64,000 nt of DNA. It comes from an uncultured Jannaschia sp. GTDB lineage: Bacteria; Pseudomonadota; Alphaproteobacteria; Rhodobacterales; Rhodobacteraceae. Each line of letters starts with the position of its first letter. The stretch's first letter is position 1. The DNA lies in the NCBI RefSeq assembly GCF_947494055.1, contig NZ_CANLTR010000003.1, positions 124,001 to 188,000 on the forward strand, given 5' to 3'. Below the pieces are notes generated by a model that was given only the letters and a program-made list of their open reading frames with translations, was not told the DNA's origin and made no database searches. Positions 5,564 through 30,323 of this stretch are shown piece by piece. The position numbers and the translations under genes are program-made.

Positions 5564-5720
5564 CGCGCGACCCGGGAGACACTGCCCCAGGCAGGGCCGA
5601 AGGAGCAACCGCCCCGGTAAACTCTCAGGCGAACGGACCGGCCGCGCGACGAACGACTCTGGAGAGAGGCCCCGCGCGGGTCCGCCGAAGGGATAGCGAT
5701 CTCAGGCGCACGGGACAGAG
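5564..5720 (+). promoter_or_regulatory. Tandem glycine riboswitch (two aptamers) upstream of gcvT
   Basis: Two consecutive glycine aptamers are visible. Aptamer 1 spans about 5564-5648, with CGCGCG strands closing P1 at 5564-5569 and 5643-5648 and the core GCCGAAGGAGCAA followed by AAACTCTCAGGC. Aptamer 2 spans about 5657-5720, closed by CTCTG (5657-5661) and CAGAG (5716-5720), with CTGGAGAGAG, CCGAAGGGATAGC and TCTCAGGC. These are the conserved bulges of the gcvT RNA family. The ribosome binding site of gcvT follows 30 bases later. In this family, glycine binding normally turns on glycine cleavage genes. No clear U-run terminator follows, so control of translation initiation is plausible. 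Confidence 0.93.
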
Positions 5721-10243: not shown

Positions 10244-10319
<76 letters not shown>

Positions 10320-15508: not shown

Positions 15509-15623
15509 CGGTGCAGCTATTCACCTGACGAAGCGTAAAGGAAGAGGGGTCGGCGCGTGGCCCGGCCCTTGCGGCAGGGATGCCACGGGTCTAGCACGGG
15601 CCGATCATTGCGGAGGGTTCTCC

Positions 15624-16226
15624 ATGTTCACGGGCATCGTCACCGATATCGGCACCGTCCGCGCGCTCGACCGGCGCGGCGACCTGCGCGTGCGGCTCGG
15701 CACCGCCTACGACACGGACGGGCTCGACCTCGGCGCGAGCGTGGCCTGCGACGGGTGCTGCCTCACGGTGGTGGATCGCGGGACCGACGCGACCGGCGGC
15801 TGGTTCGACGTCGATGTGAGCGCGGAGAGCCTGTCGAAAACGGCGCTGGGGACTTGGGAGACCGGCAGCCGGGTCAATCTGGAGCGGCCGTTGCGCGTGG
15901 GCGACGAGCTCGGCGGGCACATCGTGTCGGGCCATGTCGACGGCAAGGCGCGGATCGTCTCGATCACGCCGGAGGGCGAGTCGAAGCGCTTCGTCTTCGA
16001 GGCCCCGGCGGCGCTCGCGCGCTTCATCGCGCCGAAGGGCTCGGTCGCGCTCAACGGCACCTCGCTCACCGTGAACGAGGTCGAGGGCGCGCGGTTCGGG
16101 GTCAACATGATCCCGCATACCCAGACCGCGACGACTTGGGGAACGTCGAAGGTCGGCGACCTCGTGAACCTCGAGATCGACACGCTCGCCCGCTACGTCG
16201 CCCGGCTTGCGGAGTTGGCGGCCTAG
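15624..16226 (+). CDS. ribE: Riboflavin synthase alpha chain
   Basis: A 200-residue protein with two lumazine-binding domains. The first begins MFTGIVTDIGTV; the second contains DELGGHIVSGHVDGKARI and SVALNGTSLTVNEVEG. It dismutates 6,7-dimethyl-8-ribityllumazine to riboflavin. GGAGGG precedes the ATG at 15624. No FMN riboswitch is visible in the 115 bases upstream. ribB and ribH follow after two intervening genes, one of them on the opposite strand. ribD and a functional ribA are not in the window. Confidence 0.96.
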   Translation: MFTGIVTDIGTVRALDRRGDLRVRLGTAYDTDGLDLGASVACDGCCLTVVDRGTDATGGWFDVDVSAESLSKTALGTWETGSRVNLERPLRVGDELGGHIVSGHVDGKARIVSITPEGESKRFVFEAPAALARFIAPKGSVALNGTSLTVNEVEGARFGVNMIPHTQTATTWGTSKVGDLVNLEIDTLARYVARLAELAA

Positions 16227-16266
16227 GGCGGCCGGGTTCAAGTATTTTGGCCAAGAAGAAGGGGCG
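16219..16266 (+). repeat. Post-gene hairpin plus TATTTTGG element (copy A, divergent)
   Basis: CGGCC (16219-16223) and GGCCG (16230-16234) form a short hairpin spanning the ribE stop codon. It is followed by CAAGTATTTTGGCCAAGAAG and a G-run. The AT-rich island resembles, but is not identical to, the two identical copies at 20163-20185 and 25645-25667. All three lie directly after a stop codon behind a GC-rich hairpin. The likely role is transcript termination or 3'-end protection, but this is not shown. Confidence 0.4.
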
Positions 16267-16325
16267 GGGTGGCCCTTGCGCTCCGGCGGCGCGCATGCGG
16301 TGATCGCGCTCGAAGGAGCGCGCCC

Positions 16326-16883
16326 ATGACTCAGACCCCCGGTATCGGACACAATTCACGGCAGGATCTCGACGGATACGCGAGTCGTCTGGTGCTCTGG
16401 CGGACGGCGCGGGCGGATCTGATCGGGAAGGCGATGCCGATCGAGGTCGTGCGGATGCGCGTACGCCAGGCGAACGCGCTGGGTCTGTCCTACAAGACCT
16501 ATGCGGGCGTGCGGGCCGCGTCGGGTCGGGACATCGTGGCGCTGCTCTTCTCGTCGAACGCGCTCGGCATGATCCGGCGGGCCGAGGTCGAGGCGGCGCG
16601 GGCGGCGAAGCTCGCCGACGTCGCGGCGGTGCGGGGCGTGCTGGTGCATCCGCCGCTCGCCGCCACCGCCCCCGAGCCGCTCGACTGGGCCGAGGACGCG
16701 CCGCGCTTCGACGAGCGCTGGTCCGTCATGCGCGACCGGCTGCGCACGGCGCTCGTCCGGCACGCCTTGCCGGCGGACGGCGTGCTGATGATCGGGGAGA
16801 CCTCGTTCGAGGCGAGCTGGTGCGCGGCGGCGCGTGCCGCGGGATACGTGCGGGGCGAAGTCTATTTCGGGTCGCCCGAATGA
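16326..16883 (+). CDS. Conserved hypothetical protein with N-terminal GIGHNS motif
   Basis: A 185-residue protein of unknown function. It begins MTQTPGIGHNS; a GIGHN motif near the N-terminus recurs in small alphaproteobacterial proteins of unclear role. The rest is Ala/Arg-rich and mostly helical. It includes VVRMRVRQANALGLSYKTYAGVRA, which could be a helix-turn-helix-like segment, and AADGVLMIGETSFEASWCAAARAAGY-type sequence near the end. There is no signal peptide or membrane segment. The start at 16326 has GAAGGAG about 9 bases upstream. It lies between ribE and a Nudix gene. I do not recognise a function. Confidence 0.7.
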   Translation: MTQTPGIGHNSRQDLDGYASRLVLWRTARADLIGKAMPIEVVRMRVRQANALGLSYKTYAGVRAASGRDIVALLFSSNALGMIRRAEVEAARAAKLADVAAVRGVLVHPPLAATAPEPLDWAEDAPRFDERWSVMRDRLRTALVRHALPADGVLMIGETSFEASWCAAARAAGYVRGEVYFGSPE

Positions 16884-16901
16884 GTGGAGCCGACGCCGCG
16901 A

Positions 16902-17306
16902 TCATCCGTCGAGCCAGCCCAGCACCCGGTCGACATTCGGCGTGAGCGGCAGCGCCGCCATCTCGTCGGGTGCGACCCAGCGGGCGTCGAGCGCGTCATC
17001 GGCCGCGACCGGCTCACCGGATCGCCATTCGCAGAGGACGGCGGCGAGAAGGTAGTGATGGGCCACCTCTCCGCCCTCCCGCACGATCAGGTCGATATTG
17101 CCGAGATAGCGGAGCGGCGCGGCCACAACGCCCGTCTCTTCGGCGAGTTCGCGCGCCGCAGCCTCGAGCCCGGTCTCGCCCAGTTCGACATGACCGCCGG
17201 GAAAGCCCCAGAGCCCGCGATTGGGCGATTTCGCCCGCGCGACCAGCAATACGCGGCCGTCCCGCGGCACGACGGCCAGCGCGCCCAACTTCGGATGTGA
17301 CGTCAT
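16902..17306 (-). CDS. Nudix hydrolase
   Basis: A 134-residue protein with a complete Nudix box: GGHVELGETGLEAAARE, then LAEETGV (pattern GX5EX7REUXEEXGU). The preceding ARAKSPNRGLWGFPGG is typical of small ADP-ribose/(d)NTP pyrophosphatases. The substrate cannot be read from sequence. The ATG is at 17306. It is encoded opposite to the rib genes, between ribE and ribB. A role in flavin or nucleotide metabolism is only suggested by position. Confidence 0.88.
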   Translation of the reverse strand: MTSHPKLGALAVVPRDGRVLLVARAKSPNRGLWGFPGGHVELGETGLEAAARELAEETGVVAAPLRYLGNIDLIVREGGEVAHHYLLAAVLCEWRSGEPVAADDALDARWVAPDEMAALPLTPNVDRVLGWLDG

Positions 17307-17382
17307 GCACGTAGCCCTCCCCGTGCCCGCACTGGCACATCCGGTATCCCGACGCTACATCCGGACAAGACTGGAGGTGCCC

Positions 17383-18504
17383 ATGCCCGACCCGATCCCC
17401 TTCGAGATGCCCGGCCCCGTGGAGTCGGAATACGGCGACGTGATCTCCTCCATCGAGGAAATCATCGAGGATGCGCGCAACGGACGGATGTTCATCCTGG
17501 TCGATCACGAGGATCGCGAAAACGAGGGCGATCTCTGCATCCCGGCGCAGATGGCCACGCCCGACGCGATCAACTTCATGGCGACGTACGGGCGGGGGCT
17601 GATCTGCCTGACGCTGACCGGCGACCGGATCGACGCGCTCGGCCTGCCACTGATGGCGTCGCAGAACTCCTCGCGGCACGAGACCGCCTTCACCGTGTCG
17701 ATCGAGGCACGCGAGGGCGTCTCCACCGGGATCAGCGCGCATGACCGCGCCCGCACCGTGTCGGTCGCCATCGACGCGACCAAGGGCGCGGCCGACATCG
17801 CGACGCCGGGCCACGTCTTTCCGCTGCGCACCAAGGAGGGCGGCGTGCTGGTCCGCGCGGGCCATACCGAGGCGGCCACCGACATTTCCCGGCTGGCCGG
17901 GCTGAACCCGTCCGGCGTGATCTGCGAGGTGATGAACGAGGACGGGTCGATGGCCCGCCTGCCCGATCTCGTCGCCTTCGCGCAGCGCCACGGACTCAAG
18001 ATCGGCACGATCAGCGACCTGATCTCCTACCGGCGGCGCTACGACAATCTCGTGAACCAGACGGCGTCGCGGCCGGTGACGAGCCGGTTCGGCGGCGAGT
18101 GGCTGATGCGCGTCTTCACCGACGAGACCCAGGGCGCGGAGCATATCGTGCTGACGAAGGGCGACCTGACCGCGCCCGGGCCGGTCCTCGCGCGGATGCA
18201 CGCGATGAACCCGCTGGAGGACGCGCTGGGCATCGGGGAGAGCGATCTGATCGGCGCGATGCGCGTGATCGCGGCCGAGGGGCGCGGCGTCGTCGTCCTG
18301 CTGCGCGATACCGACATGAAGCTCGACCAGGGCGGCGGGGTCAGCCCGCAGAAGCTGCGGCAATACGGGTTGGGCGCGCAGATCCTCGCCGCGTTGAACA
18401 TCCACGAGATGACGCTGCTGACGAATTCCGGGCAGCCTCGGATCGTCGGCCTCGACGCTTACGGGCTGACGATCACGGGCACGCGGCCCATTCCGGAGGA
18501 TTGA
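17383..18504 (+). CDS. ribB: 3,4-dihydroxy-2-butanone 4-phosphate synthase with degenerate GTP cyclohydrolase II domain (RibB-X)
   Basis: A 373-residue protein. The N-terminal domain (to about residue 215) is an intact DHBP synthase with DHEDRENEGD at 41-50, HETAFTVSIEA, GISAHDRARTV and VFPLRTKEGGVLVRAGHTEA. It makes the four-carbon riboflavin precursor from ribulose 5-phosphate. The C-terminal half has the GTP cyclohydrolase II fold but lacks the zinc-binding cysteines (no C-X-C after the substrate loop) and has LLRDTDMKLDQGGG where active enzymes carry RQEGRGIG. GCH II activity is therefore very unlikely. The ATG at 17383 has GGAGG upstream. ribH follows after 4 bases. Confidence 0.94.
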   Translation: MPDPIPFEMPGPVESEYGDVISSIEEIIEDARNGRMFILVDHEDRENEGDLCIPAQMATPDAINFMATYGRGLICLTLTGDRIDALGLPLMASQNSSRHETAFTVSIEAREGVSTGISAHDRARTVSVAIDATKGAADIATPGHVFPLRTKEGGVLVRAGHTEAATDISRLAGLNPSGVICEVMNEDGSMARLPDLVAFAQRHGLKIGTISDLISYRRRYDNLVNQTASRPVTSRFGGEWLMRVFTDETQGAEHIVLTKGDLTAPGPVLARMHAMNPLEDALGIGESDLIGAMRVIAAEGRGVVVLLRDTDMKLDQGGGVSPQKLRQYGLGAQILAALNIHEMTLLTNSGQPRIVGLDAYGLTITGTRPIPED

Positions 18505-18508
18505 GGGC

Positions 18509-19051
18509 ATGGCGGGACATTCCGACAACGAGCTGAAGCTGCCGACCTTCGAGGAAGCGCCGAAGGTCCTCATCGTGATCGCGCCCTATTACGGCGCGAT
18601 CTCGGCTCGGCAACTGGAATCCGCACGCGCCGTGCTGGAGCAGGCGGGAGCCACGCACGAGACGGTGGAGATGCCCGGCTCCCTCGAGATCCCCACGGCG
18701 ATCGGCATCGCGCATCGGCAGGGGGATTACGACGGCTATGTCGCGCTCGGTTGCGTGATCCGGGGACGGACCTCGCATTACGATGTGGTGGTGGGCGAGA
18801 GCGCGCGTGGGATCGCGACGCTCGGCCTCGCGGGCGCCTGCATCGGCAACGGCATCATCACCGTCGAGAACATGGAGCAGGCCGAGGAGCGCGCCGATGC
18901 GGAGCGCCTCGACACGGCGGGCGCGGCCGCGCAGGCCGCGCTGCACCTGATCGCGCTGCAGAAGCGGATGGGGAAGCCCGAACGCGGCGTCGGGTTCCGT
19001 CCGGGCAGCTTCCTGCACGACGCGGCGACCAAGGGTCCGACGGTCGCCTGA
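18509..19051 (+). CDS. ribH: 6,7-dimethyl-8-ribityllumazine synthase
   Basis: A 180-residue lumazine synthase. The substrate-binding loop ETVEMPGSLEIPTAI, the catalytic-histidine segment GCVIRGRTSHYDVV and GNGIITVENMEQAEERAD are all present. It condenses the RibB product with the pyrimidine precursor. The length is slightly above the family norm because of an extra C-terminal tail after the LIALQKRMG helix. It starts 4 bases after ribB, so the two are co-translated. It converges on the DUF2380-like gene with a gap of 7 bases. Confidence 0.95.
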   Translation: MAGHSDNELKLPTFEEAPKVLIVIAPYYGAISARQLESARAVLEQAGATHETVEMPGSLEIPTAIGIAHRQGDYDGYVALGCVIRGRTSHYDVVVGESARGIATLGLAGACIGNGIITVENMEQAEERADAERLDTAGAAAQAALHLIALQKRMGKPERGVGFRPGSFLHDAATKGPTVA

Positions 19052-19058
19052 TGCCTGC

Positions 19059-19559
19059 TCAGCGGTCCTTGGGCGGGATCGCCGCGATCCCGGCGACGAG
19101 ACGGTTTGCGGCGTGGCGCCACGCCGCTTCGGTGTCGCCGCGAAAATCGTGGGCGGTGGCGTAGCGGACTTCGCCCGTCTCCACATCGCGGAGCACGGCC
19201 TGCATCGACAGGACGAGCGCGCTCATGCGGAATACCCAGACCTGAAGCGTCCGGTCCGCGCCGGCTTCCCGCCCAGACTCCATCGCGCAGGGGGCGCACA
19301 TGTGAACCTTGGCGCGGCGGCGGTGCTTGGCCAGGGAGACGTCGGCCCGCGCGGCCGGCACGATCGCATAGACGCCCGCGAGGCTTGCCGTGATGAAGTC
19401 GCTGGTCCGGTCCAGACGCTCGGCATAGCCCGCCTGTCCGAGCGGCGACGTGTCCCCCTCGATCTCCGGCTCCATTATCAAGAGATGGCGCTCCTGCGCG
19501 CGAGCGCCCGCGGCGATGCACAGAAGCAGGGCAATGAGTGCGAGCAAGGGGCGAGGCAT
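19059..19559 (-). CDS. Secreted DUF2380-like protein
   Basis: A 166-residue exported protein. A signal peptide covers about residues 1-22 (MPRPLLALIALLLCIAAGARA). The body has EPEIEGDTSPLGQAGYAERLDRTSDFI and a CAPC pair in KVHMCAPCAME, consistent with a DUF2380-type periplasmic protein of unknown function. I start at 19559 because the signal peptide begins there and GGGGA precedes it; the open frame extends to 19649. It lies on the opposite strand inside what is often a continuous ribH-nusB operon. It converges on ribH and diverges from nusB. Confidence 0.72.
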   Translation of the reverse strand: MPRPLLALIALLLCIAAGARAQERHLLIMEPEIEGDTSPLGQAGYAERLDRTSDFITASLAGVYAIVPAARADVSLAKHRRRAKVHMCAPCAMESGREAGADRTLQVWVFRMSALVLSMQAVLRDVETGEVRYATAHDFRGDTEAAWRHAANRLVAGIAAIPPKDR

Positions 19560-19660
19560 GGCAATCCCCGGGATCAGGACAAGCCCATCCTGGCGTCGCG
19601 TGGGGTCACACGACAAGGTGTGCGCTTGACCCCGCCAGGCGGCCCTCATAGGTCGCGCGA

Positions 19661-20143
19661 ATGGCTGAACCGACTCCCGAAGACAGACGTCTGCTGAAGC
19701 GCCGAATGAAGTCCGCCGCGCGTCTCTATGCCGTGCAGGCCCTGTTCCAGATGGAGGCGATGGGGCAGGGCGTCGACAAGGTCCGCGCCGAGTTCGAGAC
19801 CCATCGCTTCGGCATGGTCACCGACGAGGGCGAGTTCGCCGAGGGCGACGTGGACCTGTTCCGGTCCCTGATCGAGCGAGCGGTGGAACGGCAGGCGCGG
19901 ATCGACCAGATGACGGATCGGGCGTTGGTGACAAAATGGCCCATTGACCGGATCGACCCGACCCTGCGTGCGCTGTTCCGGGCGGCGGGGGCGGAGTTGC
20001 TGATCGGATCGACCCCGCCGAAGGTGGTGATCAACGAGTTCGTCGAGGTCGCGCGCGCCTTCTTTCCCGGAGGGAAGGAGGCGGGGTTCGTCAACGGCGT
20101 GCTCGACCACATGGCACGGGCGGCGCGTCCCGAAGCGTTCTAG
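19661..20143 (+). CDS. nusB: Transcription antitermination factor NusB
   Basis: A 160-residue all-helical protein. Family marks are ARLYAVQALFQMEAMG near the N-terminus, IDRIDPTLRALFRAAGAEL and the C-terminal VVINEFVEVARAFFPGGKEAGFVNGVLD. NusB binds boxA RNA with S10 and supports rRNA antitermination. The ATG is at 19661. A TTGACC element at 19626-19631 might belong to its own promoter, since the upstream gene is on the other strand, but the -10 (TAGGTC) is weak. A hairpin and the repeat element follow the stop codon. Confidence 0.95.
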   Translation: MAEPTPEDRRLLKRRMKSAARLYAVQALFQMEAMGQGVDKVRAEFETHRFGMVTDEGEFAEGDVDLFRSLIERAVERQARIDQMTDRALVTKWPIDRIDPTLRALFRAAGAELLIGSTPPKVVINEFVEVARAFFPGGKEAGFVNGVLDHMARAARPEAF

Positions 20144-20147
20144 GGTT

Positions 20148-20185
20148 TCGCCCTCCGGGCGAGGATATTTGGAAAGCAAAGACGG
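20148..20185 (+). repeat. Post-gene hairpin plus 23-base repeat element (copy B)
   Basis: Five bases after the nusB stop, TCGCCC-TCC-GGGCGA (20148-20162) forms a tight hairpin. The 23-base element 20163-20185 follows at once; it begins GGATATTTGG and ends CAAAGACGG. An exact reverse-complement copy is at 25645-25667. It is an AT-rich island in very GC-rich DNA. A role as terminator or 3'-end signal of nusB is the simplest reading. It ends 2 bases before the stop codon of the convergent RND permease gene. Confidence 0.6.
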
Positions 20186-20187
20186 GC

Positions 20188-23100
20188 TCAGGCCGGGCGG
20201 CGTCGGCCGATCACGCGCGCGGCCGCGAGCCATGTGGTGACGAGGAGGAGTGCCGTGCCTGAAAGGAAGGCGGCGAATGCCGGCGCGGTCCCGCCAGCCG
20301 GAAGGAGCGGTGCGAGCGGCGCCCACACGGCACCGGTGATGAGCTGCAGCCCGAGCGTCGCGAAGCCCCAGAGCAGGATCGCCGTGCCGAGCGACAGCCC
20401 CGCGTAACCGATCCGTTGCCCCCGACCGCGGGCGGGCAAGCGCATCAGGCGGCGCAGCGCGGTGCCCATGCGCGTCAGGTCATGCCCCATCACGAGGATC
20501 GCCGGCACGAGAAGCAGGACGAGCACCATCCCGAAGCCCAGCCCGTAGCTCAGCGTGATGACCGTGGGGCGCAGGAACTGCGCGTCCGACGAGGTCTCGT
20601 AGAGCAGCGGCGCGAGGCCCAGCACCGTCGTCGCCGTCGTCAGCAGGATCGGGCGCAGGCGGTCGCAGACGGCGTCGGTGATCGCGGGGACGAGGGCGCG
20701 GTCGCGGGCATATTCGTCGACCGTCGTCACCAGCACGATGGAATCGTTGATTATGATCCCGGTCATCCCGATCAGGCCGACCACCGAGAACATCGACAGC
20801 GGCACGTCCCAGAACCAGTGCCCCCAGATCGCGCCGATCAGGCCGAAGGGGATCACCGCCATGATGACCGCGGGCCGTGTCCACGACGAGAAGATCCAGG
20901 CCAGAACGAGGTAGATGCCCAGAAGGCAGCCGGCGAAGCCCAGCGTCGCGTCGGTCAGGAACTCGCTCTCCTGCTCGGCGAGACCGCTCAGCTCGTAGGT
21001 GACGCCGTAGGTGCTCGCGATCTCGGGCAGGATCTCCTCGGCGATGCGCTGGCGGATCTCGTTGGCGCGGGCGGCGTCGTCCTGCGTGATGTCGCCGGAA
21101 ACGGTGACCTCCTGTATGCCGTTGCGTCGGATGATGTTGGCGAAGCCCGATTGCACGCGCACCGTCACGATGTCCGAAAGCGCGACGTCGCCACCGAGCG
21201 GCGAGGGCAGACGCACCGTGTCGAGGAAATCGGCCCTGAGCTCTTCCTCCGGCAGCTCCACCCGGATTGCGCCGGTGCGCGGACCGACGGGGAAGGTCGC
21301 GGCTTCGATCCCGGCCAGGCGGTCCCGCAGGGTCGCGCCGAGCGCGCCCACGTCGAAGCCCAGCGCCTCGCCCTGTGGCGTCAGGGTGAGGATCAGTTCG
21401 TCCTTGTCGTAGGGCAGCGTGTCCTCGACGGCGGAGACTTCGGGGAACTGCGAGACCGCAATCTTGAGCGCTTCGGAGGCGGCCTTCAGCGTGTCGGAAT
21501 CGGCGCCGGTGAACTCGACCGACAGCGCGTCGCCGCCGGGGCCGGAGCGCCAGCCGCGGAAACTGATCTCTTCGGTCAGGGGAAGCTGGCTGACGCTCTC
21601 CTGCAGCCGCTCGACGAACTCGAAGGAGGAATAGGGGCGCAGGTCCGCGGCGATGAGCTCGATCGAGATGGCGCCGAGCTGCTCGGGGTCCTTGTCGTCG
21701 GCGGAGGCGAGCGCGCGGCCCGAATTGCCGCCGATCTCGGCCAGAACATAGTCGAGCGGGTTGGTGCCGTATTCCGCCTCGTAATCCGCCCCAAGCGCCT
21801 CGGTCGCGCGTTGCAGCTCGCGCATCTGCTCGATCGTGTCGGCGCGGTCGGCCCCGTCGACCATCGCGAAGTTGCCGCTGATCGAGCCCTGTTCGGGCGA
21901 GTCGAAGAACCGCCATTGCACGTCGCCGCGCAGGAACAGCGCGAACTGCGTCGCCAGCAGGAGCAGCGCCGCCGCCGCGACGGGATAACGCGCCAGCAGC
22001 ATGAGCCGGACGAGCGGCCGGAACAGGCGTTCGCGGAACCAGTCCAGCCCCCGGTTCACCTGGCGGGACGGCAGATCGTACCAATGCTCGTGCGCGGAGT
22101 GCCGAAGCGCCCCCGCCATATGGTGCGGCAGGATCAGGAAGCACTCGACCAGCGACGCCACCAGCACGACGATGACGGTGAAGGGGATATCGAGGATCAG
22201 CTCTCCGAACCGTCCGCCGATCGCGACGAGGCCGAAGAAGGCGATCACCGTGGTCAGCGTCGCCGAAAAGACCGGCGCGAACATCCGCTGCGCCGCCCGC
22301 TCCGCCGCCATGCCCGCCGGTTCGCCGAGTTGGCGGGCGCGGAAATCCGCGTGTTCGCCCACGACGATCGCGTCGTCGACGACGATGCCGAGCGTGATGA
22401 TGAGCGCGAAAAGCGAGATCATGTTGAGCGAGATCCCCGCCGCCCACATCAGCGCGATGGCCGAGAGCATCGCGACCGGAATGCCGGCCGCGACCCAGAA
22501 CGCCGTACGGGCGTTGAGGAACAGGAACAGCAGCCCCACCACGAGGGCGAGGCCGAGGATCGCGTTGTCCACCAGAAGCGAGATCCGCCCGGTGATCGCC
22601 TCCGTCCGGGTGCGGATGAGCTCGATATTCGTGCCCTCGGGCGCGTCCAGCAGAAGGTCCGCGGCCACCGCCTCCACCTGCCGCTGCAACCCGATCGCGT
22701 CGCCGTCGGCGGAGCGGTCGACACGGACGGTGATGGCCGGGTCCGGGCCGACGAAATAGGCCCGCTCCCGGTCCACGCCCTCGGAGACGACGCGCGCGAC
22801 ATCGCCCACGGTGAGCGCGGCGCCGCCGGCCTCCCGGCGCAGGACGATCTCCTCGATCTCATCGGCCTCCCGGCGCGCCTGTCCGGTACGGACGCGGGCA
22901 TTGGCGCCGGCGACGTCGCCGGCCGGATCGGCCTGCGCCTCCCGGCCGATCGCGGCGGCGATCTCGGACATCGTGAGGTCGTAGCGCAGCAGGTTCGCCG
23001 TCGGCACCTCCACCACCACCTCGGGCGCGGCGATGCCCTGGATCGTGGTCCGGGTGACGCCGGCGGCGAAGAGCCGCGTGACGAACTCGTCGGCCAGCCG

Positions 23101-23553
23101 GGCAAGCTGGTCGACGCCCAGCGGACCGGTCACGATGACATCGGTGACCCGGTCGCGCCAGCGGCCCAGACGGACCGTGGGATCGTCGAGGCCGTCGGGC
23201 AGGCCGGTGACGCCGTCGATCGCCGACTGCACCTCCTCGGCGGCGGAGGGCACGTCGTAGCCCGGCTCGAACTCAAGCTCGATCCAGGCGTTGTTCTCGC
23301 GCGACACCGCGTTGGTGTCGTTCACCCCTTCGACGCTGCGCAGCGCCGGCTCCAGCACCTGCACGATGCCGCGGTCCACGTCTTCGGCCCCCGCGCCGTC
23401 CCAGCCGACCAACACCTCGATGTCGTCGACGATCACGTCGGGAAAGAACTGCGCCCGCATGTTCGGCAGCGCAAAAAGCCCCCCGGCCAGCATCAGGACG
23501 AGAAGAAGGTTCGCGGCGGTCCGGTGGCGGGTGAAGTAGCCGAGCAGTCCCAT
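20188..23553 (-). CDS. RND-family efflux permease (AcrB/MexB-like)
   Basis: A 1121-residue inner-membrane proton-driven pump. It has a first membrane helix at about residues 14-31 (TAANLLLVLMLAGGLFALPN), a large periplasmic domain and the helix LGIVVDDAIVVGEHADFRAR with the proton-relay aspartates D393/D394. A second periplasmic domain and a C-terminal helix bundle with GLIGMTGIIINDSIVLVTTVDEYA follow. It belongs to the hydrophobe/amphiphile RND group and is slightly longer than AcrB because of two extra C-terminal helices. It lies 1 base after the adaptor gene and forms a two-gene operon with it. No TolC-like gene is adjacent. The substrate is unknown. Confidence 0.93.
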   Translation of the reverse strand: MGLLGYFTRHRTAANLLLVLMLAGGLFALPNMRAQFFPDVIVDDIEVLVGWDGAGAEDVDRGIVQVLEPALRSVEGVNDTNAVSRENNAWIELEFEPGYDVPSAAEEVQSAIDGVTGLPDGLDDPTVRLGRWRDRVTDVIVTGPLGVDQLARLADEFVTRLFAAGVTRTTIQGIAAPEVVVEVPTANLLRYDLTMSEIAAAIGREAQADPAGDVAGANARVRTGQARREADEIEEIVLRREAGGAALTVGDVARVVSEGVDRERAYFVGPDPAITVRVDRSADGDAIGLQRQVEAVAADLLLDAPEGTNIELIRTRTEAITGRISLLVDNAILGLALVVGLLFLFLNARTAFWVAAGIPVAMLSAIALMWAAGISLNMISLFALIITLGIVVDDAIVVGEHADFRARQLGEPAGMAAERAAQRMFAPVFSATLTTVIAFFGLVAIGGRFGELILDIPFTVIVVLVASLVECFLILPHHMAGALRHSAHEHWYDLPSRQVNRGLDWFRERLFRPLVRLMLLARYPVAAAALLLLATQFALFLRGDVQWRFFDSPEQGSISGNFAMVDGADRADTIEQMRELQRATEALGADYEAEYGTNPLDYVLAEIGGNSGRALASADDKDPEQLGAISIELIAADLRPYSSFEFVERLQESVSQLPLTEEISFRGWRSGPGGDALSVEFTGADSDTLKAASEALKIAVSQFPEVSAVEDTLPYDKDELILTLTPQGEALGFDVGALGATLRDRLAGIEAATFPVGPRTGAIRVELPEEELRADFLDTVRLPSPLGGDVALSDIVTVRVQSGFANIIRRNGIQEVTVSGDITQDDAARANEIRQRIAEEILPEIASTYGVTYELSGLAEQESEFLTDATLGFAGCLLGIYLVLAWIFSSWTRPAVIMAVIPFGLIGAIWGHWFWDVPLSMFSVVGLIGMTGIIINDSIVLVTTVDEYARDRALVPAITDAVCDRLRPILLTTATTVLGLAPLLYETSSDAQFLRPTVITLSYGLGFGMVLVLLLVPAILVMGHDLTRMGTALRRLMRLPARGRGQRIGYAGLSLGTAILLWGFATLGLQLITGAVWAPLAPLLPAGGTAPAFAAFLSGTALLLVTTWLAAARVIGRRRPA

Positions 23554-23554
23554 C

Positions 23555-25006
23555 TCAGCCGCCCATCCGCGACTCGATACGTTCGACGACGTCCACCGGC
23601 ACGTCCTCGGCTTCGAGCTGGCTCAGCATCCGCGCCTTCACGTCGGACGGGATGCGCGTATTGGCATTGAGATAGGCCACGATGCGCGCACGGCGTTCGG
23701 GATCGAGCGTGACGGTGCCGGTCTCGTCCGCCGCGTCTACACCGGGGCGCAGGGGGCGGACGCGGATGCCGAGGCCGAGCGCGGCGGTGCGTTCGGCCAC
23801 CACCTCGTGTCCCGCGATGTCGCCGGCGACGAGCACGTCGTCGCCTTGCCGGCGCAGCAGCGTCACCTCCCGCGCCTCCAACCGGTCGTCCGCGCCGAGG
23901 ACCAGCACGTCGCTCAACGGCGACAGGGCGGTGGCGGGCAGACGGATCGCGTCCTCGATCGCGGGCTCCTCCACCTCGACGCGCACGAAGTCGCCGGGGC
24001 GGAAGCCGCGGCTGTCGTGGAGGCGGGCGTAAACGGTGCGGCCGGTCTGGCCCTCGCCCACGGCGGCGGCCTCGCGGGTGACGGTGCCTTCTGCCGCGAG
24101 CTCCAGCCCCTGCACGTCGAGCACGGCGCGCATCGGAACCCCGATCAGCGCGCCCTCGGCATCGAGCAATCGCGCGTGCTGCGCGGCGGAGAGGCGGAAC
24201 ACGACCTCGAGTTCGGCCGGGTCGATCAGCGTGGCGACCATCTCGTTCGCGGAGACGAGCCCGCCCGGCAGGACCGAGACGTCGGCGAGCCGGCCGGCGA
24301 AAGCCGCTTCGACGGTCCGGTCCTCGAGGTCGCGGGTCGCGTTCTCCACCGCGATGCGGCTGCGGTCGATGGCCAGCCGCGCGGAATCGATCCGCGCCTC
24401 GCTCGTGGCGACGGTGCCGCGCGCGGACAGGATGGCCTGCTCGGCCGCCGAGAGCGACAGCTCCGCCGCCTCGACCGCCGCCGTCGCACCGACGCCGCGA
24501 TTGCTCAGATCGCGCTGCCGCTGCACTGCCTGGGCCTGCAGGTCGCGCTGCGTCTCGGCCCCGACGAGCTCCGCCCGCGACAACTCCAGGCTGCGCCCGG
24601 CGTCGCGCAGCTCGGCCTCCGCTTCGGCGAGATCGGCCCGGGCGACCGACAGCGCGGCCTCCGCTCCGGCGGGATCGATGCGCATCAGGACCTGCCCCTC
24701 GGTCACGCGTCCGCCATCCTCCATCTCGGGCGCGAGTTCGACGACGCGGCCGCCCACCGGGGCGCGAAGCTCCAGCACCCGGCGGGCGCGGATCTCGCCG
24801 AAGGCCGTCAGGACGGGCGCGATCGTCTCCGGCACGGCCTCCACCACGTTCGCGGCGAGGATGCGCTCGCGGGCGGGCGGCCCGCCCTCATCGCGCGCGC
24901 GACGCTCCTCCAGCGCGGCGAAGACGATCGCCGCCGCCCAGGCGAGCAGCCCCGCCGTGAGGGCGAGCAGGAAGAGCGCCGTGAGGCTACGTCCAAGAAA
25001 GCGCAT
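23555..25006 (-). CDS. RND efflux periplasmic adaptor (membrane fusion protein)
   Basis: A 483-residue adaptor. It has an N-terminal membrane anchor (MRFLGRSLTALFLLALTAGLLAW, shown in part), barrel/lipoyl half-motifs (GEIRARRVLELRAPVGGRV and FAGRLADVSVLPGGLVSANE) and a long Ala/Glu-rich coiled-coil hairpin (about residues 115-230). Beta-barrel and membrane-proximal domains complete it. It would bridge the RND pump to an outer-membrane channel. The start is the ATG at 25006 just before the anchor; the frame opens earlier at 25060. The C-terminus carries an unusual extra 45-residue helical tail (LDPERRARIVAYLNAN...). Confidence 0.9.
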   Translation of the reverse strand: MRFLGRSLTALFLLALTAGLLAWAAAIVFAALEERRARDEGGPPARERILAANVVEAVPETIAPVLTAFGEIRARRVLELRAPVGGRVVELAPEMEDGGRVTEGQVLMRIDPAGAEAALSVARADLAEAEAELRDAGRSLELSRAELVGAETQRDLQAQAVQRQRDLSNRGVGATAAVEAAELSLSAAEQAILSARGTVATSEARIDSARLAIDRSRIAVENATRDLEDRTVEAAFAGRLADVSVLPGGLVSANEMVATLIDPAELEVVFRLSAAQHARLLDAEGALIGVPMRAVLDVQGLELAAEGTVTREAAAVGEGQTGRTVYARLHDSRGFRPGDFVRVEVEEPAIEDAIRLPATALSPLSDVLVLGADDRLEAREVTLLRRQGDDVLVAGDIAGHEVVAERTAALGLGIRVRPLRPGVDAADETGTVTLDPERRARIVAYLNANTRIPSDVKARMLSQLEAEDVPVDVVERIESRMGG

Positions 25007-25082
25007 CGGATCTCCGGCCGGGTGACGTACGAAAGATAGGGATTTCCCGGCCCCTGCCAATCCTCACGTTCGTCGCACGCGG

Positions 25083-25097
25083 TTCCGTCGCACGGAA
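25083..25097. other. Perfect hairpin between moaB and the RND adaptor gene
   Basis: TTCCGT-CGC-ACGGAA is a perfect dyad in the 102-base gap between the end of moaB and the start of the adaptor gene, both on the minus strand. There is no T-run on either side. It may be the moaB terminator or an operator for the efflux pair; no regulator gene is adjacent. Confidence 0.3.
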
Positions 25098-25108
25098 ATG
25101 ACAGGCGA

Positions 25109-25636
25109 TCACTTTCGGCGGAGATGTTCGTCCAGCCGCGGCATGATCTCGACGAAGTTGCAGGGGCGATGGCGGTAGTCGAGCTGTGGGGCGAGGATAC
25201 CGTCCCACGCGTCCCGGCAGGCCGAGGGCGAGCCGGGCAGCGCGAAGAGGTAGGTCCCCTTCGCCACACCGGCGCAGGCGCGGGACTGTACCGCCGAGGT
25301 GCCGATCTTCTGCATCGAGATCATCGTGAAGACGGTGCCGAAGGCGTCGATCTCCTTCTCGTAGACGTCGCGATGCGCCTCCACCGTCACGTCGCGCCCC
25401 GTCAGTCCGGTCCCGCCGGTCGACAGGATCACGTCGATCTCCGCGTTGTCGCACCAGGTGTCGAGTTGCGCCGCGATCGCCGCACGGTCGTCCTTCAGGA
25501 TCGCGCGGGCGGCGAGGGAATGCCCCGCCGCCGTCAGGCGCTCGACGAGCGTTTCGCCCGAGCGGTCGTCCTCTGCCGCGCGCGTGTCGCTGACGGTCAG
25601 GACGGCGATGCGGCAGGGTAGGAAGTCGCGCGTCAC
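25109..25636 (-). CDS. moaB: Molybdenum cofactor biosynthesis protein B
   Basis: A 175-residue MoaB/MogA-fold protein. Marks are IAVLTVSDTRAAEDDRSGETL, the molybdopterin-binding STGGTGLTGRDVTVEA and FALPGSPSACRDAWDGIL. MoaB/Mog proteins adenylylate molybdopterin before Mo insertion. I choose the GTG at 25636 (codes VTRDFLPCRIAV), because homology begins there; the open frame continues upstream into the intergenic repeat. It lies downstream of the glutathione transferase gene on the same strand, separated by the post-gene element. Confidence 0.92.
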   Translation of the reverse strand: MTRDFLPCRIAVLTVSDTRAAEDDRSGETLVERLTAAGHSLAARAILKDDRAAIAAQLDTWCDNAEIDVILSTGGTGLTGRDVTVEAHRDVYEKEIDAFGTVFTMISMQKIGTSAVQSRACAGVAKGTYLFALPGSPSACRDAWDGILAPQLDYRHRPCNFVEIMPRLDEHLRRK

Positions 25637-25644
25637 GATTGCCT

Positions 25645-25690
25645 CCGTCTTTGCTTTCCAAATATCCCGGGGGGCCGCAGGCCGGGGCAG
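25645..25690 (-). repeat. Post-gene hairpin plus 23-base repeat element (copy C, inverted)
   Basis: Bases 25645-25667 are the exact reverse complement of 20163-20185. On the minus strand the element follows the stop of the YghU-type gene (25710) after a GC-rich hairpin, GGCC-TGC-GGCC, within 25675-25690. Thus, as in copy B, the order is stop codon, hairpin, GGATATTTGG...CAAAGACGG. The moaB start codon follows within 10 bases, so if it is a terminator then moaB needs its own promoter. Confidence 0.6.
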
Positions 25691-25709
25691 CGCCCCTCCA
25701 CCCGAAGTG

Positions 25710-26534
25710 TCAGTCGAAATCCCCCGGCGAATGCCGTTCCGGCAAGGGCGCCGGAGCTTCACCCTTGAGCCGATTGACGCGACGCCCGCGCTGCACCCCC
25801 GGCCGCGCGTCGATCCGCTCGGCCCATTCGACGACGTTCCCGTATTCGTGCACGGCGAGGAACCGATCGGACCCGTCGTAGAGCCGCCCGCCGAGGCAGA
25901 GCTGCCCGTACCACGGCCAGATCGCCATGTCGGCGATGGTATATTCGTCGCCCGCGATGAAATCCTTCGAAGCCAGCTCGCGGTTCAGCACGTCGAGCTG
26001 CCGCTTCGCCTCCATCGCGTAGCGGTTGATCGGATATTCCATCTTCTCGGGCGCGTAGGCGAAGAAATGGCCGAACCCGCCGCCGAGGAACGGCGCGCTG
26101 CCCATCTGCCAGAACAGCCAGGACAGCATCTCCGGTCGGCTCGACCCGAGGAACGCGTCGTAGCGCTCGGCGAGGTGAAGCATGATCGCCGCGCTTTCGA
26201 ACACGCGGACGGGCTCCGGGCCGGTCAGGTCGAGGAGCGCGGGGATCTTGGAGTTCGGATTGATCTCCACGAAGCCCGAGCCGAACTGGTCACCCTCGCC
26301 GATATCGATGGGCCAGGCGTCGTATTCGACGTCGTGCCCGGCCTCGATCAGCTCCTCGAACAGGATCGTGACCTTCTGCCCGTTCGGCGTGGCGAGGCTG
26401 TGGAGCTGGTAGGGATGTTCGCCCCGGGGCAACGCCTTGTCGTGGGTCGGGCCGGCGACGGGGCGGTTGGTGCTGGCGAACTGGCCACCGTTCTCGGCAT
26501 CCCAGGTCCAGACGTCGGGGAGTGTGTAGCTCAT
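25710..26534 (-). CDS. yghU: Glutathione S-transferase family protein, YghU type (disulfide-bond oxidoreductase)
   Basis: A 274-residue thioredoxin-fold/all-helical protein. The long N-terminal extension (YTLPDVWTW, FASTNRPVAGPTHDKALPRGEH) before the GST fold is diagnostic of YghU. The glutathione site includes NPNSKIPAL and VFESAAIMLHLAE. The helical domain has LSWLFWQMGSAPFLGGGFGHFFAYAPE. YghU uses two glutathione molecules and reduces disulfides such as 2-hydroxyethyl disulfide. The ATG at 26534 has GGAG upstream. It is consistent with the glutathione-based thiol metabolism seen elsewhere (gshA at 31.6-33.0 kb). Confidence 0.9.
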   Translation of the reverse strand: MSYTLPDVWTWDAENGGQFASTNRPVAGPTHDKALPRGEHPYQLHSLATPNGQKVTILFEELIEAGHDVEYDAWPIDIGEGDQFGSGFVEINPNSKIPALLDLTGPEPVRVFESAAIMLHLAERYDAFLGSSRPEMLSWLFWQMGSAPFLGGGFGHFFAYAPEKMEYPINRYAMEAKRQLDVLNRELASKDFIAGDEYTIADMAIWPWYGQLCLGGRLYDGSDRFLAVHEYGNVVEWAERIDARPGVQRGRRVNRLKGEAPAPLPERHSPGDFD

Positions 26535-26612
26535 CGCGGGTCTCCAGTTTGTCGAGGGAGCACATAGCGTTCCGCCGGCGCCCGCAACCCCGCGTCCGCG
26601 CACATTCAAGGT

Positions 26613-27398
26613 TCAGGGGTCGAGCCGGGCGGCGAGCTCCAGCAAATCCGCCCAGGCCTCGCGCTTGGCGCCCGGGTTCCGCATCAGGTAGGCGGGCGGC
26701 AGCATCGGCAGGGCCGGGCGACCGAACCCCTCGGTCCAGGTGCCGCGCAACCGCGTCAGCCCGCGCCGGCCCAGCACCGCGCCGCAGGGCTGGTTGCCCA
26801 TGAGGACGAGGATCTCGGGGGCGGCCAGTTCGACGTGCCGGCGCAGGAACGGCAGCATCATCGCCATCTCGTCCGGCTCCGGCGCCCGGTCCGACGGCAG
26901 TCGCCACGGCAGGACGCTGGCGAGATAGACGCCCGCCGACCCTTCGCCGTCGCGCGCGAGGCCGATCGCCGCCAGCATCCGGTCGAGGAGTGCGCCGCTC
27001 GCACCGGCGAAGGGATGGCCCGCCCGGTCCTCCTCGCGTCCCGGCGCGTCACCGATGATCATCACCCGCGCGGATGGGTCGCCCGCGGCGAAGACCGTGC
27101 TCGACGCGCCGAGGCGCAGGTCGCAATACGGATAGCCCAGGATCGCGTCGTGCAATTCGGCCAGGCTCGCCGCCGCTGCGGCGCGCCGGTCAGCCTCGGC
27201 GACGGCATCCGTGGCCTGCGCGGCATCCGCCGTCACCGGCATGTCCACCTCGGGCGGCGGGGCGGGCGGTTCGGGCACGGGCTGTCGGTCGGGCAGGGCG
27301 TAGCGGTTGACGGGACGTTCTCCGATCGCCTCGTCGCAGCCCATCTCGATCAGCCATTCCAGCGTCGCGCGCGCGGTGAAGGGATCGAGCTCGGGCAT
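26613..27398 (-). CDS. Uracil-DNA glycosylase superfamily protein (family 4-like)
   Basis: A 261-residue protein. The UDG active-site block [31 protein letters not shown] is clear in three parts: GDAPG, EED and PFAG. It is followed by [17 protein letters not shown] and [16 protein letters not shown]. Family 4 enzymes normally hold a 4Fe-4S cluster with four cysteines. Here only PYC before the motif is in place; the KCRPP and aaCrpfL cysteines are Trp and Met/Leu. A proline-rich linker (about 40-65) precedes the domain. The start at 27398 ([16 protein letters not shown]) matches the alphaproteobacterial helix that begins such proteins. It is divergent from pyrB. Confidence 0.85.
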
Positions 27399-27471
27399 GC
27401 CCCTGCCTAGCCCGCCGGCCCCGCGACCGGAAGGGCTTGATCGCCGCCCGCCCGCGCCGCATGGAGGCGCC

Positions 27472-28407
27472 ATGACCTTCCGGCATCGCCACCTCCTCGG
27501 GATCGAGCCGCTCCACCCGGCGGAGATCACCGAGCTTCTCGACCTCGCGCAGCACTACGCGGAGGCCACGCGGCGGGGGGAGAAGCACGGGACCGCGCTC
27601 GAGGGGCTCACGCAGGTCAACATGTTCTTCGAGAACTCGACCCGCACGCAGGCCAGCTTCGAGATCGCCGGCAAGCGTCTGGGCGCGGACGTGATGAACA
27701 TGGCGATGCAGGCGTCGAGCCTGAAGAAGGGCGAGACGCTGATCGACACCGCGCTGACGCTGAACGCGATGCGCCCCGATCTCCTCGTCGTGCGGCACCC
27801 GCATTCGGGCGCGGTGAACCTGCTTGCCGAGAAGGTGAACTGCGCCGTTCTGAACGCGGGCGACGGGCGGCACGAGCATCCGACGCAGGCGCTTCTCGAC
27901 GCACTGACGATCCGCCGGGCCAAGGGGCGGCTGCACCGGTTGACCGTGGTGATCTGCGGCGACATCGCCCATAGCCGGGTGGCGCGGTCGAACCTGATCC
28001 TGCTCGGCAAGATGGAGAACCGCGTCCGCCTCGTCGGCCCACCGACGCTGATGCCCGCCGAGGTAGCGGAACTTGGTGTCGAGGTCACCGACGACATGGC
28101 CGAGGGCCTGCGCGACGCCGACGTGGTGATGATGCTGCGCCTCCAGAAGGAGCGCATGGACGGCGCGTTCATCCCCTCGGAGCGCGAATACTACCACCGC
28201 TTCGGCCTCGACGCGGAGAAGCTGCGACACGCCAGGCCCGACGCCATCGTGATGCATCCCGGTCCGATGAACCGGGGCGTGGAGATCGACGGCACGCTCG
28301 CCGACGACATCAACCGCTCCGTCATACAGGAACAGGTCGAGATGGGCGTGGCCGTGCGCATGGCGGCGATGGACCTGCTGGCGCGGAACCTGCGGGCCGA
28401 CGCCTGA
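27472..28407 (+). CDS. pyrB: Aspartate carbamoyltransferase catalytic subunit
   Basis: A 311-residue enzyme of the second step of pyrimidine synthesis. The carbamoyl-phosphate site [13 protein letters not shown], the VRHPHSG loop, [14 protein letters not shown] and [14 protein letters not shown] are all present. No regulatory pyrI is nearby. The ATG at 27472 has GGAGG upstream. It is followed by a small membrane protein gene and a dihydroorotase-like gene, as in the Pseudomonas-type pyrBC' arrangement, where the inactive PyrC' supports assembly of ATCase. Confidence 0.97.
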
Positions 28408-28466
28408 GGTCGAACCCGAGCGCCGCCGCCGCGTTGACTCCGTGACAGCCACAGCGGAGCCGCCCC

Positions 28467-29006
28467 ATGACCTTTTCCCTCGAGCCGCGCGATCCGCGGG
28501 TCCACGTCTTCTCGCTCAGCGACGGGTCCCTCAAGCTCGCGCACCGTACCTACCTTTCGCCGCCCGGGGAGGCCCCGGACGCGACGCCGGTGCAGGATGC
28601 CCTCGGCGCGCCGGTCGACGCGGCCCATGTCGAGGTCTTCGCCGTCCGCGACGTCGCGCCGATGGGCCTGCGCAGCTATCTCGCGCAGGCGCACGATATC
28701 CCGCCCGCCTCGATGGAGGCGGATACGGCGCGGCTCGACGCGCTGTCCGGCGACGTCCTCGTGGTGGCGCCGCGCGCGGTGGAGGGACTCTCGGAGCTGG
28801 AGCCCCGGCCGGAGCTCACCCATATCGGCAGCTACGCCCCGGCGGAGGCCGACATGACGCCGCGCGACCTGCCGCCCGCCGCAAAGCCGCCGCGCGAGGA
28901 GCGGGCCGATAAGACGGTTGCGGGCAAGCCGCTCGACCGGACCCGGATCCTCTGGATCGTGGTCGCGGCGCTGGTGATCGCAGGGCTGCTCTTCGCATTC
29001 CTCTGA
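28467..29006 (+). CDS. Hypothetical C-terminally membrane-anchored protein in the pyr cluster
   Basis: A 179-residue protein of unknown function. The soluble part (1-125) has no motif I recognise and includes DVLVVAPRAVEGLSELEP and ELTHIGSYAP. A proline/charged linker (130-155) leads to one C-terminal membrane helix (ILWIVVAALVIAGLLFAFL), so it is tail-anchored with its bulk in the cytoplasm. It lies between pyrB and the pyrC-like gene, 59 and 45 bases away, all on the same strand, which suggests co-transcription. Start ATG 28467. Confidence 0.75.
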   Translation: MTFSLEPRDPRVHVFSLSDGSLKLAHRTYLSPPGEAPDATPVQDALGAPVDAAHVEVFAVRDVAPMGLRSYLAQAHDIPPASMEADTARLDALSGDVLVVAPRAVEGLSELEPRPELTHIGSYAPAEADMTPRDLPPAAKPPREERADKTVAGKPLDRTRILWIVVAALVIAGLLFAFL

Positions 29007-29051
29007 GCGCGCTCGATTGCGCCGCGGCCGGGCCGACGCTATCGCGGAAGC

Positions 29052-30323
29052 ATGGACGCCACGCTCTTCACCGATGCCCGCCTGATCGATCCCGTTTCCG
29101 GCACGGAGCGGCGGGGCGACCTGCGTGTGGTGGACGGGCGTATCGCCGAGCCGGGCCCGGCGGCGACGCGGATCGACTGCCGCGGTCGCTGCCTCGCGCC
29201 GGGCATCGTCGATATCGGCGTGAAGGTGGGCGAGCCGGGCGAGCGCCACAAGGAGAGCTTCCGCACCGCCGGGGAAGCGGCGGCGCGGGGCGGGGTGACC
29301 ACGATAATCGTCCGGCCCGACACGATCCCGGTGATCGACGCGCCCGAACTGCTGGAGCAGGCTCGGGGCCGCGCCGCCGAGGCCCGCGTGCGCGTTCGCC
29401 ACATGGCGGCGCTGACCCGCGGCCGCGCCGGGCGCGAGATGGTGGAGATCGGCTTCCTGCGCGATGCCGGGGCGGTGGCCTTCACCGACGGCACGCATGT
29501 CGTGCGCGACACCCGGATTCTGAGCCGCTGCCTGACCTATGCGCGCTCGCTCGGCGCGCTCGTCATCGGCCACCCGCAGGATCCGGGCCTCTCCGCCGGT
29601 GCCGTCATCACCAGCGGCAAGTTCGCGAGCCTGCGCGGCCTGCCCGGCGTCTCGCCCCTGGCCGAGCGGCTGGGGGTGGAGCGCGACCTCGCGCTCGCCG
29701 GTGCCACCGGCGTCGCCTACCATCTCGACCAGATCACCTGCGCCGCCAGCCTGCCGGCGCTCCGGCGGGCAAAGGCGGAGGGGCTCGACGTGACGGCGGG
29801 GACCTCGATCCACCACCTGACGCTCAACGTGCTCGACGTCGCCGATTACCGCACCTTCTTCAAGGTCACGCCGCCCCTGCGGGAGGAGGCCGACCGGCTC
29901 GCCACGGTCGAGGCACTCGCGGACGGCACGATCGACGTGATCTCCTCGATGCATACGCCGCAGGACGAGGAGTCGAAGCGCCTGCCCTTCGAGGAGGCGG
30001 CGCCGGGCGCCGTCGGGCTCGAGACGCTGCTGCCCGCCGCGATGCGTCTCGTCCATTCGGGCCATCTCGACCTCCCCACGCTCTGGCGGGCGCTGTCGCT
30101 GAACCCTGCGCGGCGGCTCGGGCTCGAGGGCGGGACGCTCGACGTTGGCGCGCCGGCGGACCTCGTCCTCTTCGACCCGGACGCGCCCTTCGTGCTCGAC
30201 CGCTGGAAGCTCGCCTCCAAGTCGAAGAACACGCCCTTCGACGGCGCGCGCATGGAGGGGCGGGTGATCGGCACCTGGGTCGGGGGCATGCGCGTCTGGG
30301 ATCGGGAGGCGGCACATGCCTGA
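29052..30323 (+). CDS. pyrC: Dihydroorotase-like protein lacking metal ligands (PyrC' type)
   Basis: A 423-residue amidohydrolase-fold protein closest to type I dihydroorotase. However, the metal-binding HxH after APGIVD is replaced: residues 54-59 read DIGVKV. The catalytic D-H-A-P-H site reads SSMHTP (298-303), so the Asp is Ser. Structural motifs such as TSIHHLTLN and LSLNPARRLGL persist. It is therefore probably inactive as dihydroorotase, like Pseudomonas PyrC', which is a structural partner of ATCase. An active PyrC would have to be encoded elsewhere. It follows pyrB in the same operon and overlaps plsY by 8 bases. Start ATG 29052. Confidence 0.9.
   Translation: MDATLFTDARLIDPVSGTERRGDLRVVDGRIAEPGPAATRIDCRGRCLAPGIVDIGVKVGEPGERHKESFRTAGEAAARGGVTTIIVRPDTIPVIDAPELLEQARGRAAEARVRVRHMAALTRGRAGREMVEIGFLRDAGAVAFTDGTHVVRDTRILSRCLTYARSLGALVIGHPQDPGLSAGAVITSGKFASLRGLPGVSPLAERLGVERDLALAGATGVAYHLDQITCAASLPALRRAKAEGLDVTAGTSIHHLTLNVLDVADYRTFFKVTPPLREEADRLATVEALADGTIDVISSMHTPQDEESKRLPFEEAAPGAVGLETLLPAAMRLVHSGHLDLPTLWRALSLNPARRLGLEGGTLDVGAPADLVLFDPDAPFVLDRWKLASKSKNTPFDGARMEGRVIGTWVGGMRVWDREAAHA

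Follow-up and report, generated by a model that had tools for sequence, protein, structure and literature searches.

The 23-base sequence repeated at gene ends in an uncultured Jannaschia sp. (hereafter the host) is part of a two-part element, in which a GC-rich block and RRTATTT are followed by a 3-nt spacer and then by an A-rich tail some 11 nt long. This element has the look of a transcription stop or insulator of a kind not yet described. The favored reading, to which a probability of roughly 0.4 is assigned, is that of a lineage-specific stop or insulator at gene ends whose tail would be read as duplex DNA; it is the GC block and RRTATTT at gene ends that point to transcription. The Rhodobacterales, in which the element is found, include much-studied phototrophs and the marine roseobacters. 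If the element does stop or insulate transcription, a considerable fraction of the gene ends in some of these genomes (22 of 34 convergent gaps sampled in the genome G085) use a signal that was not flagged by a U-run scan at the window copies. In addition, terminators would not ordinarily have a downstream half that varies in spelling from species to species.

Copies in the window

In the window, which is the whole 64,000-nucleotide stretch of DNA analyzed, the 23-mer GGATATTTGGAAAGCAAAGACGG occurs as two exact inverted copies (Table 1), as the original prediction had stated. With up to three mismatches allowed there is no third match in the window, and 100 shuffles gave none. The predicted coding-strand order of stop codon, GC hairpin and element was likewise confirmed, both at nusB and at the GST-like gene that is here taken to be yghU. 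At nusB, the stop codon of the convergent RND transporter gene starts 3 bases past the element. At the second site, the end of the copy (the tail) overlaps the presumed ribosome-binding region of the co-directional moaB-like gene, the start codon of which was picked by eye. As there is little promoter room ahead of the moaB-like gene, a full stop at copy 2 is unlikely. The looser copy noted earlier behind another gene, presumably ribE, is present, but it is not degenerate: it belongs, without any mismatch, to a second tail class, TATTT-TGG-CCAAGAAGAAG.

Table 1. Element copies, hairpins and neighboring genes, with positions in the window.
Feature	Position	Strand	Basis
Presumed ribE; second-class copy at gene end	15624..16226	+	Pfam Lum_binding 1.2e-49 (lumazine-binding domains)
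Second-tail-class element 3' of ribE, AGTATTT-TGG-CCAAGAAGAAG; TATTT onward at 16243-16261	16241..16261	+	
nusB; stop codon 20141-20143; copy 1 at gene end	19661..20143	+	Pfam NusB 5.1e-30
GC hairpin TCGCCC-TCC-GGGCGA, 3' of the nusB stop	20148..20162	+	sequence
Element copy 1: GGA, TATTT (20166-20170), spacer GGA, tail AAGCAAAGACG (20174-20184)	20163..20185	+	
RND transporter gene (AcrB-type), convergent with nusB	20188..23553	-	Pfam ACR_tran 7.6e-134
Molybdopterin-binding (moaB-like) gene, co-directional, directly downstream of copy 2	25109..25636	-	Pfam MoCF_biosynth 3.8e-31
Element copy 2, exact, reversed relative to the window	25645..25667	-	
Two GC hairpins (25696-25684, 25683-25673) between the GST/yghU-like stop and copy 2	25673..25696	-	sequence
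GST/yghU-like gene; stop 25710-25712; copy 2 at gene end	25710..26609	-	Pfam GST_C_2 9.3e-9

Anatomy of the element

A search of the host genome for GGATATTT-N(0-8)-AAGCAAAGA returned 24 matches, all 24 with a spacer of exactly 3, while the control returned 0. Directly 5' of GGATATTT, 14 of these 24 copies carry CCTCCGGCGG. Other copies carry in its place a hairpin, as at nusB, or a G-run with two C-runs. The second tail class is also represented elsewhere in the host genome as GAGTATTT-NNN-CCAAGAAGAAG (for example, at loci L070-L075 and L077). The GATATT sequence invites a promoter-like reading, which was rejected because inspection of the sequence revealed no -35 partner.

Position-wise constraint after TATTT was assessed over 155 copies, drawn from 30 loci and 118 titled records. 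Positions 1-2 are weakly constrained and position 3 is a purine in 91%, so that the spacer is free in sequence apart from its purine ending (NNR). Positions 4-14 are constrained, with 79% G at position 11 and, at positions 12 and 13, 94% and 80% A, respectively. Strong constraint stops near position 14, and from position 15 the sequence is merely somewhat G-rich. In the sets from the host, from the 2.8-Mb genome G085 and from G201, a member of the host's genus, TATTT is followed by 7, 9 and 12 different dinucleotides, respectively, and the third base is a purine in 23/24, 39/42 and 66/68.

Distribution and tail dialects

Among 196 Rhodobacterales genomes, the first half of the element, CTCCGGCGGGRRTATTT, is found in 147, with the reversed-pattern control at 0 throughout. 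The number of core copies per genome ranges from 0 to 163, the maximum being that of G085. In a class-wide sample of 240 genomes, by contrast, only three contain the first half, namely the host, one more member of its family and one other, so that outside the host family it was found in 1 of 237 class genomes, as a single match. Among titled genomes, at least 118 stretches contain the element, including stretches from Ruegeria pomeroyi, Paracoccus and Rhodobacter. Judged by name, 112 of the 118 titles listed are taken to be those of Rhodobacterales taxa; the other six read Hyphomicrobiales, Pseudomonadota, Proteobacteria, Alphaproteobacteria (two) and an Avimonoglobus assembly.

Within a genome the tail is nearly uniform, with one to a few spellings, whereas between species it differs, even among congeners. 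The tail AAGCAAAGACG is shared by the host and its congener G206, while G085 has AACAAAAGAAG. Two other members of the host's genus, G201 and G207, have CAGGGAAGAAG and CCAGGAAGAAG, respectively, the latter in 2 of the 5 loci seen (the other 3 resemble background). In a further congener, G200, no repeated A-rich tail was found among 50 of its 79 GGRTATTT places. Across the 196 genomes of the order, a set that does not contain G206, the host tail pattern occurs in the host and in one other genome, there with a spacer of 0. About three tails each are present in Ruegeria pomeroyi (7 loci) and Rhodobacter sp. SGA-6-6 (8 loci).

Mean identity over tail positions 4-12 is 1.0 within the host, 0.86 within G085 and 0.99 within G201, as against 0.52-0.75 between the three. 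The within-genome values arise partly by construction: the host set was located by its tail, which makes its tails uniform, while the G085 set was located by the first half, and the 68 tails of G201 were chosen by eye among 100 of 136 places, the rest being background-like.

In the titled records, at least 16 facing pairs occur beside at least 108 single sites. Among the titled records listed, the two tails of a facing pair agree at 8.8 of 11 positions, in comparison to 5.4 for shuffled partners. In the SGA-6-6 loci seen, where about three tails coexist, both copies of a pair have the same tail. Several facing pairs in this genome also have common flanks, as if amplified.

Conservation in a congener

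The NusB protein of the congener G206 is 91% identical to that of the host. Fifteen places in G206 fit the host pattern with at most one mismatch, 13 of them at gene ends that also carry a copy in the host and 2 without a partner. The nusB copy of G206, located separately, contains an indel and brings the number of host copies traced in G206 to 14 of 24. Of the letters compared in the 13 ungapped pairs, 1 of 117 is changed in the 9-nt tail core and 2 of 65 in TATTT, in comparison to 15 of 39 in the spacer and 74 of 260 in the following 20-base flank; the G206 copies were located by pattern, which biases these counts. At a divergence of 28.5%, 14 fixed letters would survive with at most one change at about 6% of sites, and retention of 13 of the 24 host copies at that level has a chance of about 2e-10 at the flank rate. 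The tail has been kept while the flank and spacer have drifted; therefore, the copies are resident and under selection, not recent insertions. Among the copies retained in G206 is the reversed one between argD and argF (L039).

These results bear on the possibility of a dispersed repeat, similar to REPs or MITEs, that is tolerated at gene ends, with the dialects being leftovers of separate amplifications. Both orientations, the uneven copy number among genomes and the facing pairs of SGA-6-6 with their common flanks are as such a repeat would have them. Nevertheless, this origin is improbable given that 14 host copies, the one with the nusB indel included, stand at the same gene ends in G206 between flanks diverged by about 28%, and that substitutions are spread unequally over tail, spacer and flank in the 13 pairs, the opposite of what is expected from a repeat. 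The free spacer with both sides fixed argues in the same direction, and the small dispersed repeat offered in the original prediction, taken alone, leaves the fixed halves and free spacer unaccounted for. Furthermore, Y1 (RAYT-type) transposases (PF01797) are encoded in 21 of the 196 genomes, and G085, with the most copies, is not among them; an origin from RAYTs and REPs was set aside on these grounds.

Placement and orientation

Genes at the loci were called by a codon-usage script of our own, which omits RNA genes. Checked against 50 kb of annotated sequence, the script agreed with an annotated stop in 41 of 43 predictions and overlooked 12 of 53 annotated genes. The tabulated set of 226 copies comprises those of the host, G085, four further genomes and the titled records, after removal of 3 duplicate sites. 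Of these copies, 86 lie between convergent genes, 56 in sense and 50 reversed between co-directional genes, 23 between divergent genes and 5 inside a gene, with 6 undetermined.

In G085, 400 kb contain 51 copies, 25 of them in convergent gaps. Counting gaps of at least 40 bp, occupancy is 22 of 34 between convergent genes, 14 of 103 between co-directional genes and 7 of 42 between divergent genes (Fisher, p = 2.9e-8 for convergent against co-directional and p = 3.6e-5 against divergent), the last two being alike. As 25 copies fall in 22 convergent gaps, the majority of these gaps contain a single copy rather than a pair. The divergent-gap copies of G085 (n = 8) lie on six stretches, five of which were scanned for tRNAs (L289 was left out). 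In one case (L302, TATTT end at 4294) the 3' end of a tRNA-Arg lies about 70 bases past the tail, so this copy is also at a gene end; on the five stretches scanned, no tRNA gene explains the other copies. A sample of 464 kb from the host contains 12 copies; occupied are 2 of 44 gaps between convergent genes and 5 of 136 between co-directional genes, but none of the 50 between divergent genes. This sparse convergent occupancy in the host, together with the occupancy of divergent gaps in G085 and with reversed copies between seemingly co-transcribed genes, speaks against a stop or insulator.

Between co-directional genes, unpaired copies (those with no reversed partner nearby) number 46 in sense and 39 reversed (p = 0.52), a balance that is not what a plain sense terminator predicts. 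At five reversed copies, Pfam matches confirmed the coding strands of the two nearest called genes, one to either side. These sites include a class-III aminotransferase/ornithine carbamoyltransferase pair (L039), probably argD-argF, as well as a YceD/PlsX-type pair and two tRNA synthetases. Some reversed copies, as at argD-argF, lie between apparently co-transcribed genes. A replication-polarity signal was also considered and set aside: 25 of 35 chromosomal sites in G229 run with replication (counted by eye), and in G230 the ratio is 8 to 7, with the sign switch in GC skew lying near 2.25 Mb in G229 and assumed near 1.85 Mb in G230.

The original prediction of a conserved AT-rich signal at gene ends is supported by the occupancy of convergent gaps in G085 and by orthologous copies that are kept while their flanks drift. 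Tabulated against genes in the host genome and other Rhodobacterales, the association with gene ends holds, with few copies inside genes, but the element does not always lie in sense behind a stop codon. That it invariably follows a coding-strand hairpin is likewise not supported, in view of the 46:39 balance and of the structure data below.

Upstream structure and the ordinary terminator

When the 40 nt before TATTT were compared with shuffles, the mean z was 0.06 at 24 host sites and 0.28 at 42 sites of G085. There is no average excess of structure in this block, though single hairpins, such as that of nusB, do form. The nusB hairpin of G206 has a changed loop (ATC) and a retained stem, and at copy 2 (L429) the loops again differ and the stems are retained; at L036/L430, the hairpin is replaced in G206 by unrelated sequence. 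A symmetric bidirectional terminator, with a hairpin on the far side, was rejected since the sequence beyond the tail gave no signal (mean z of -0.08 and 0.20).

The element could end the transcript of the upstream gene as any intrinsic terminator does, with AUAUUU as a short U-tract, to which the tail adds favorable downstream DNA or is a by-product. This explanation is unlikely, though it accounts for the order of stop, hairpin and TATTT at both window copies, for the stems kept in G206 and for the lean of co-directional copies toward sense in the host and G085 taken together (18:9, p = 0.12). Reversed copies are about as common as sense ones (39/85 unpaired, 50/106 in all), the upstream block is weakly structured on average, and polymerase alone should need no congener-specific spelling of the tail.

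A site acting at the RNA level, either as an AU-rich cleavage site or stabilizing 3' end, or with an A-rich tail that binds RNA or ribosomes for the next gene, is quite improbable. It would fit the overlap between copy 2 and the putative ribosome-binding region of the moaB-like gene, and the possible start codons that follow soon after the tail at several copies elsewhere. However, no gene follows in sense at the 86 copies between convergent genes, and the reversed copies would present the complement of the RNA motif.

Proposed mechanism

Under the favored reading, a stop or insulator at gene ends, RNA polymerase leaving a gene would cross the GC-rich block and the AUAUUU tract and slow down there. 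The tail, at +4 to +14 after the T-tract, would then be in the duplex just ahead of the paused polymerase, to judge by the size of the enzyme. There the polymerase itself may read it, or it may be bound by a sequence-specific protein that has changed its specificity from species to species. A spacer of fixed length and free sequence, and tails that are uniform within genomes and different between them, are as expected of a sequence-specific reader. As duplex DNA, such a site would also hinder transcription arriving from the opposite side, and two-sided hindrance would account for the tolerance of both orientations and for the preference for convergent gaps in a genome with many copies. The tolerance of orientation itself suggests that the site acts as duplex DNA, from either side. 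A more specific and less probable version is a group-wide, sequence-specific two-way insulator at gene ends in which the common RRTATTT would act on polymerase and the species-specific 11-bp half would be read by a putative fast-changing DNA-binding factor. If the tail is indeed such a dialect, a matching reader is predicted in each genome.

A duplex-DNA site could also serve chromosome topology or a nucleoid protein, for example as a supercoil sink at gene ends, and be unrelated to RNA ends. Neutral orientation between co-directional genes and convergent enrichment in G085 would be consistent with this, as would the centers of TATTT and tail, which lie about one helical turn apart at a fixed spacing. 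A topology enzyme should not give rise to sequence-specific dialects, however, and the hairpin stems kept at some sites point to transcription. This is the least probable of the explanations considered.

Comparison with known systems

At the gathering score, Rfam has three matches in the window and none at the element. A keyword and sequence-string search, covering mostly the best-listed titles and the starts of abstracts, found no description of it among the papers listed, and none was seen in the portions available of PMC5217627, PMC5107571, PMC2267715, PMC6978322, PMC7866481, PMC8625941 and PMC5089854. In the available part of another article, the searched element string occurs in a Caulobacter metE leader construct (PMC6538847). 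Two further articles that contain the string concern human disease, judged by their titles.

In the features tested, the element departs from intrinsic terminators in U-run and sense orientation, from RAYT-linked REPs in the transposase and from uptake sequences in copy number. It resembles intrinsic terminators in its place at gene ends and in the order of a GC-rich block and a T-containing stretch. It differs from them in that AUAUUU is not a U-run, a fixed 11-nt tail follows a free spacer, and both orientations occur. Accordingly, a terminator scan of 15000-30000 (U-run of at least 5 T in 8) reported none at the three window copies, and its 3 sites compare with 3.8 in shuffled sequence.

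The DUS and USS of Neisseria and the Pasteurellaceae are also short repeats at gene ends, sometimes in inverted pairs, and DUS have species dialects. According to the available part of one report, a genome contains hundreds of uptake sequences, up to 1,000 or more (PMC1852404). The element, unlike these, has at most 163 core copies per genome among the 196 genomes, and 5 of 226 copies are inside genes.

REPs and BIMEs of enterobacteria and pseudomonads are mostly extragenic and occur in both orientations; REPs are also absent from divergent (promoter) gaps. The element is like them in having few copies in genes and a neutral orientation, but it lacks a palindromic REP body and has positional conservation and a free spacer. 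Divergent gaps are free of it in the host sample (0 of 50) and occupied in G085 (7 of 42).

Pol I terminators consist of a T-rich release element and a downstream site for a protein. The spacing of the element would put its tail under the polymerase, not one footprint ahead as in those terminators; like them, it has a release stretch followed by a sequence-specific downstream block.

Distribution and Orientation of Element Copies

In the genome of Rhodobacter sp. SGA-6-6, the element copies at five loci (L328, L336, L340, L348 and L352) have an upstream flank in common, and each is faced by a reversed copy. These shared flanks and facing reversed copies give the appearance of an amplified palindromic unit, as if a stretch of about 100 bp had been multiplied whole in this genome. 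On the chromosome of Ruegeria pomeroyi, 25 of the 35 chromosomal sites, counted by eye, are oriented with replication; in another genome (G230), no replication-direction bias of the sites was seen (8:7, with the switch point assumed).

In one congener of the host (G200), GGGTATTTGTGTCCCATGAGCTR occurs in at least nine copies among the 50 places listed of 79 matches to GGRTATTT, and the element tail was not seen among those 50. This sequence is probably a repeat or insertion sequence unrelated to the element.

Rfam features elsewhere in the window
Feature	Position	Strand	Basis
Glycine riboswitch aptamer	5563-5649	+	RF00504, 50.7 bits
Bacterial small SRP RNA	46341-46439	-	Rfam scan of window
tRNA gene	10244-10316	+	Rfam scan of window

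Sequence Context of Individual Copies

Within G085, the genome richest in core copies, the gap holding a copy at L302, 4133-4294, was classed as divergent, and a tRNA-Arg 3' end lies about 70 bases past the tail of this copy. Two other copies in this genome (L299, plus strand, 356; L306, minus strand, 8310) carry the near-duplicates TATATGGATATTT and GGGATATGGATATTT in place of the upstream block, an unusual variant, each with a normal tail. At loci L226 and L141, GCCTCCGGCGGGGATATTT is immediately preceded by a hairpin that has an A-run on its 5' side and T's on its 3' side; the element can thus come after an apparently ordinary terminator.
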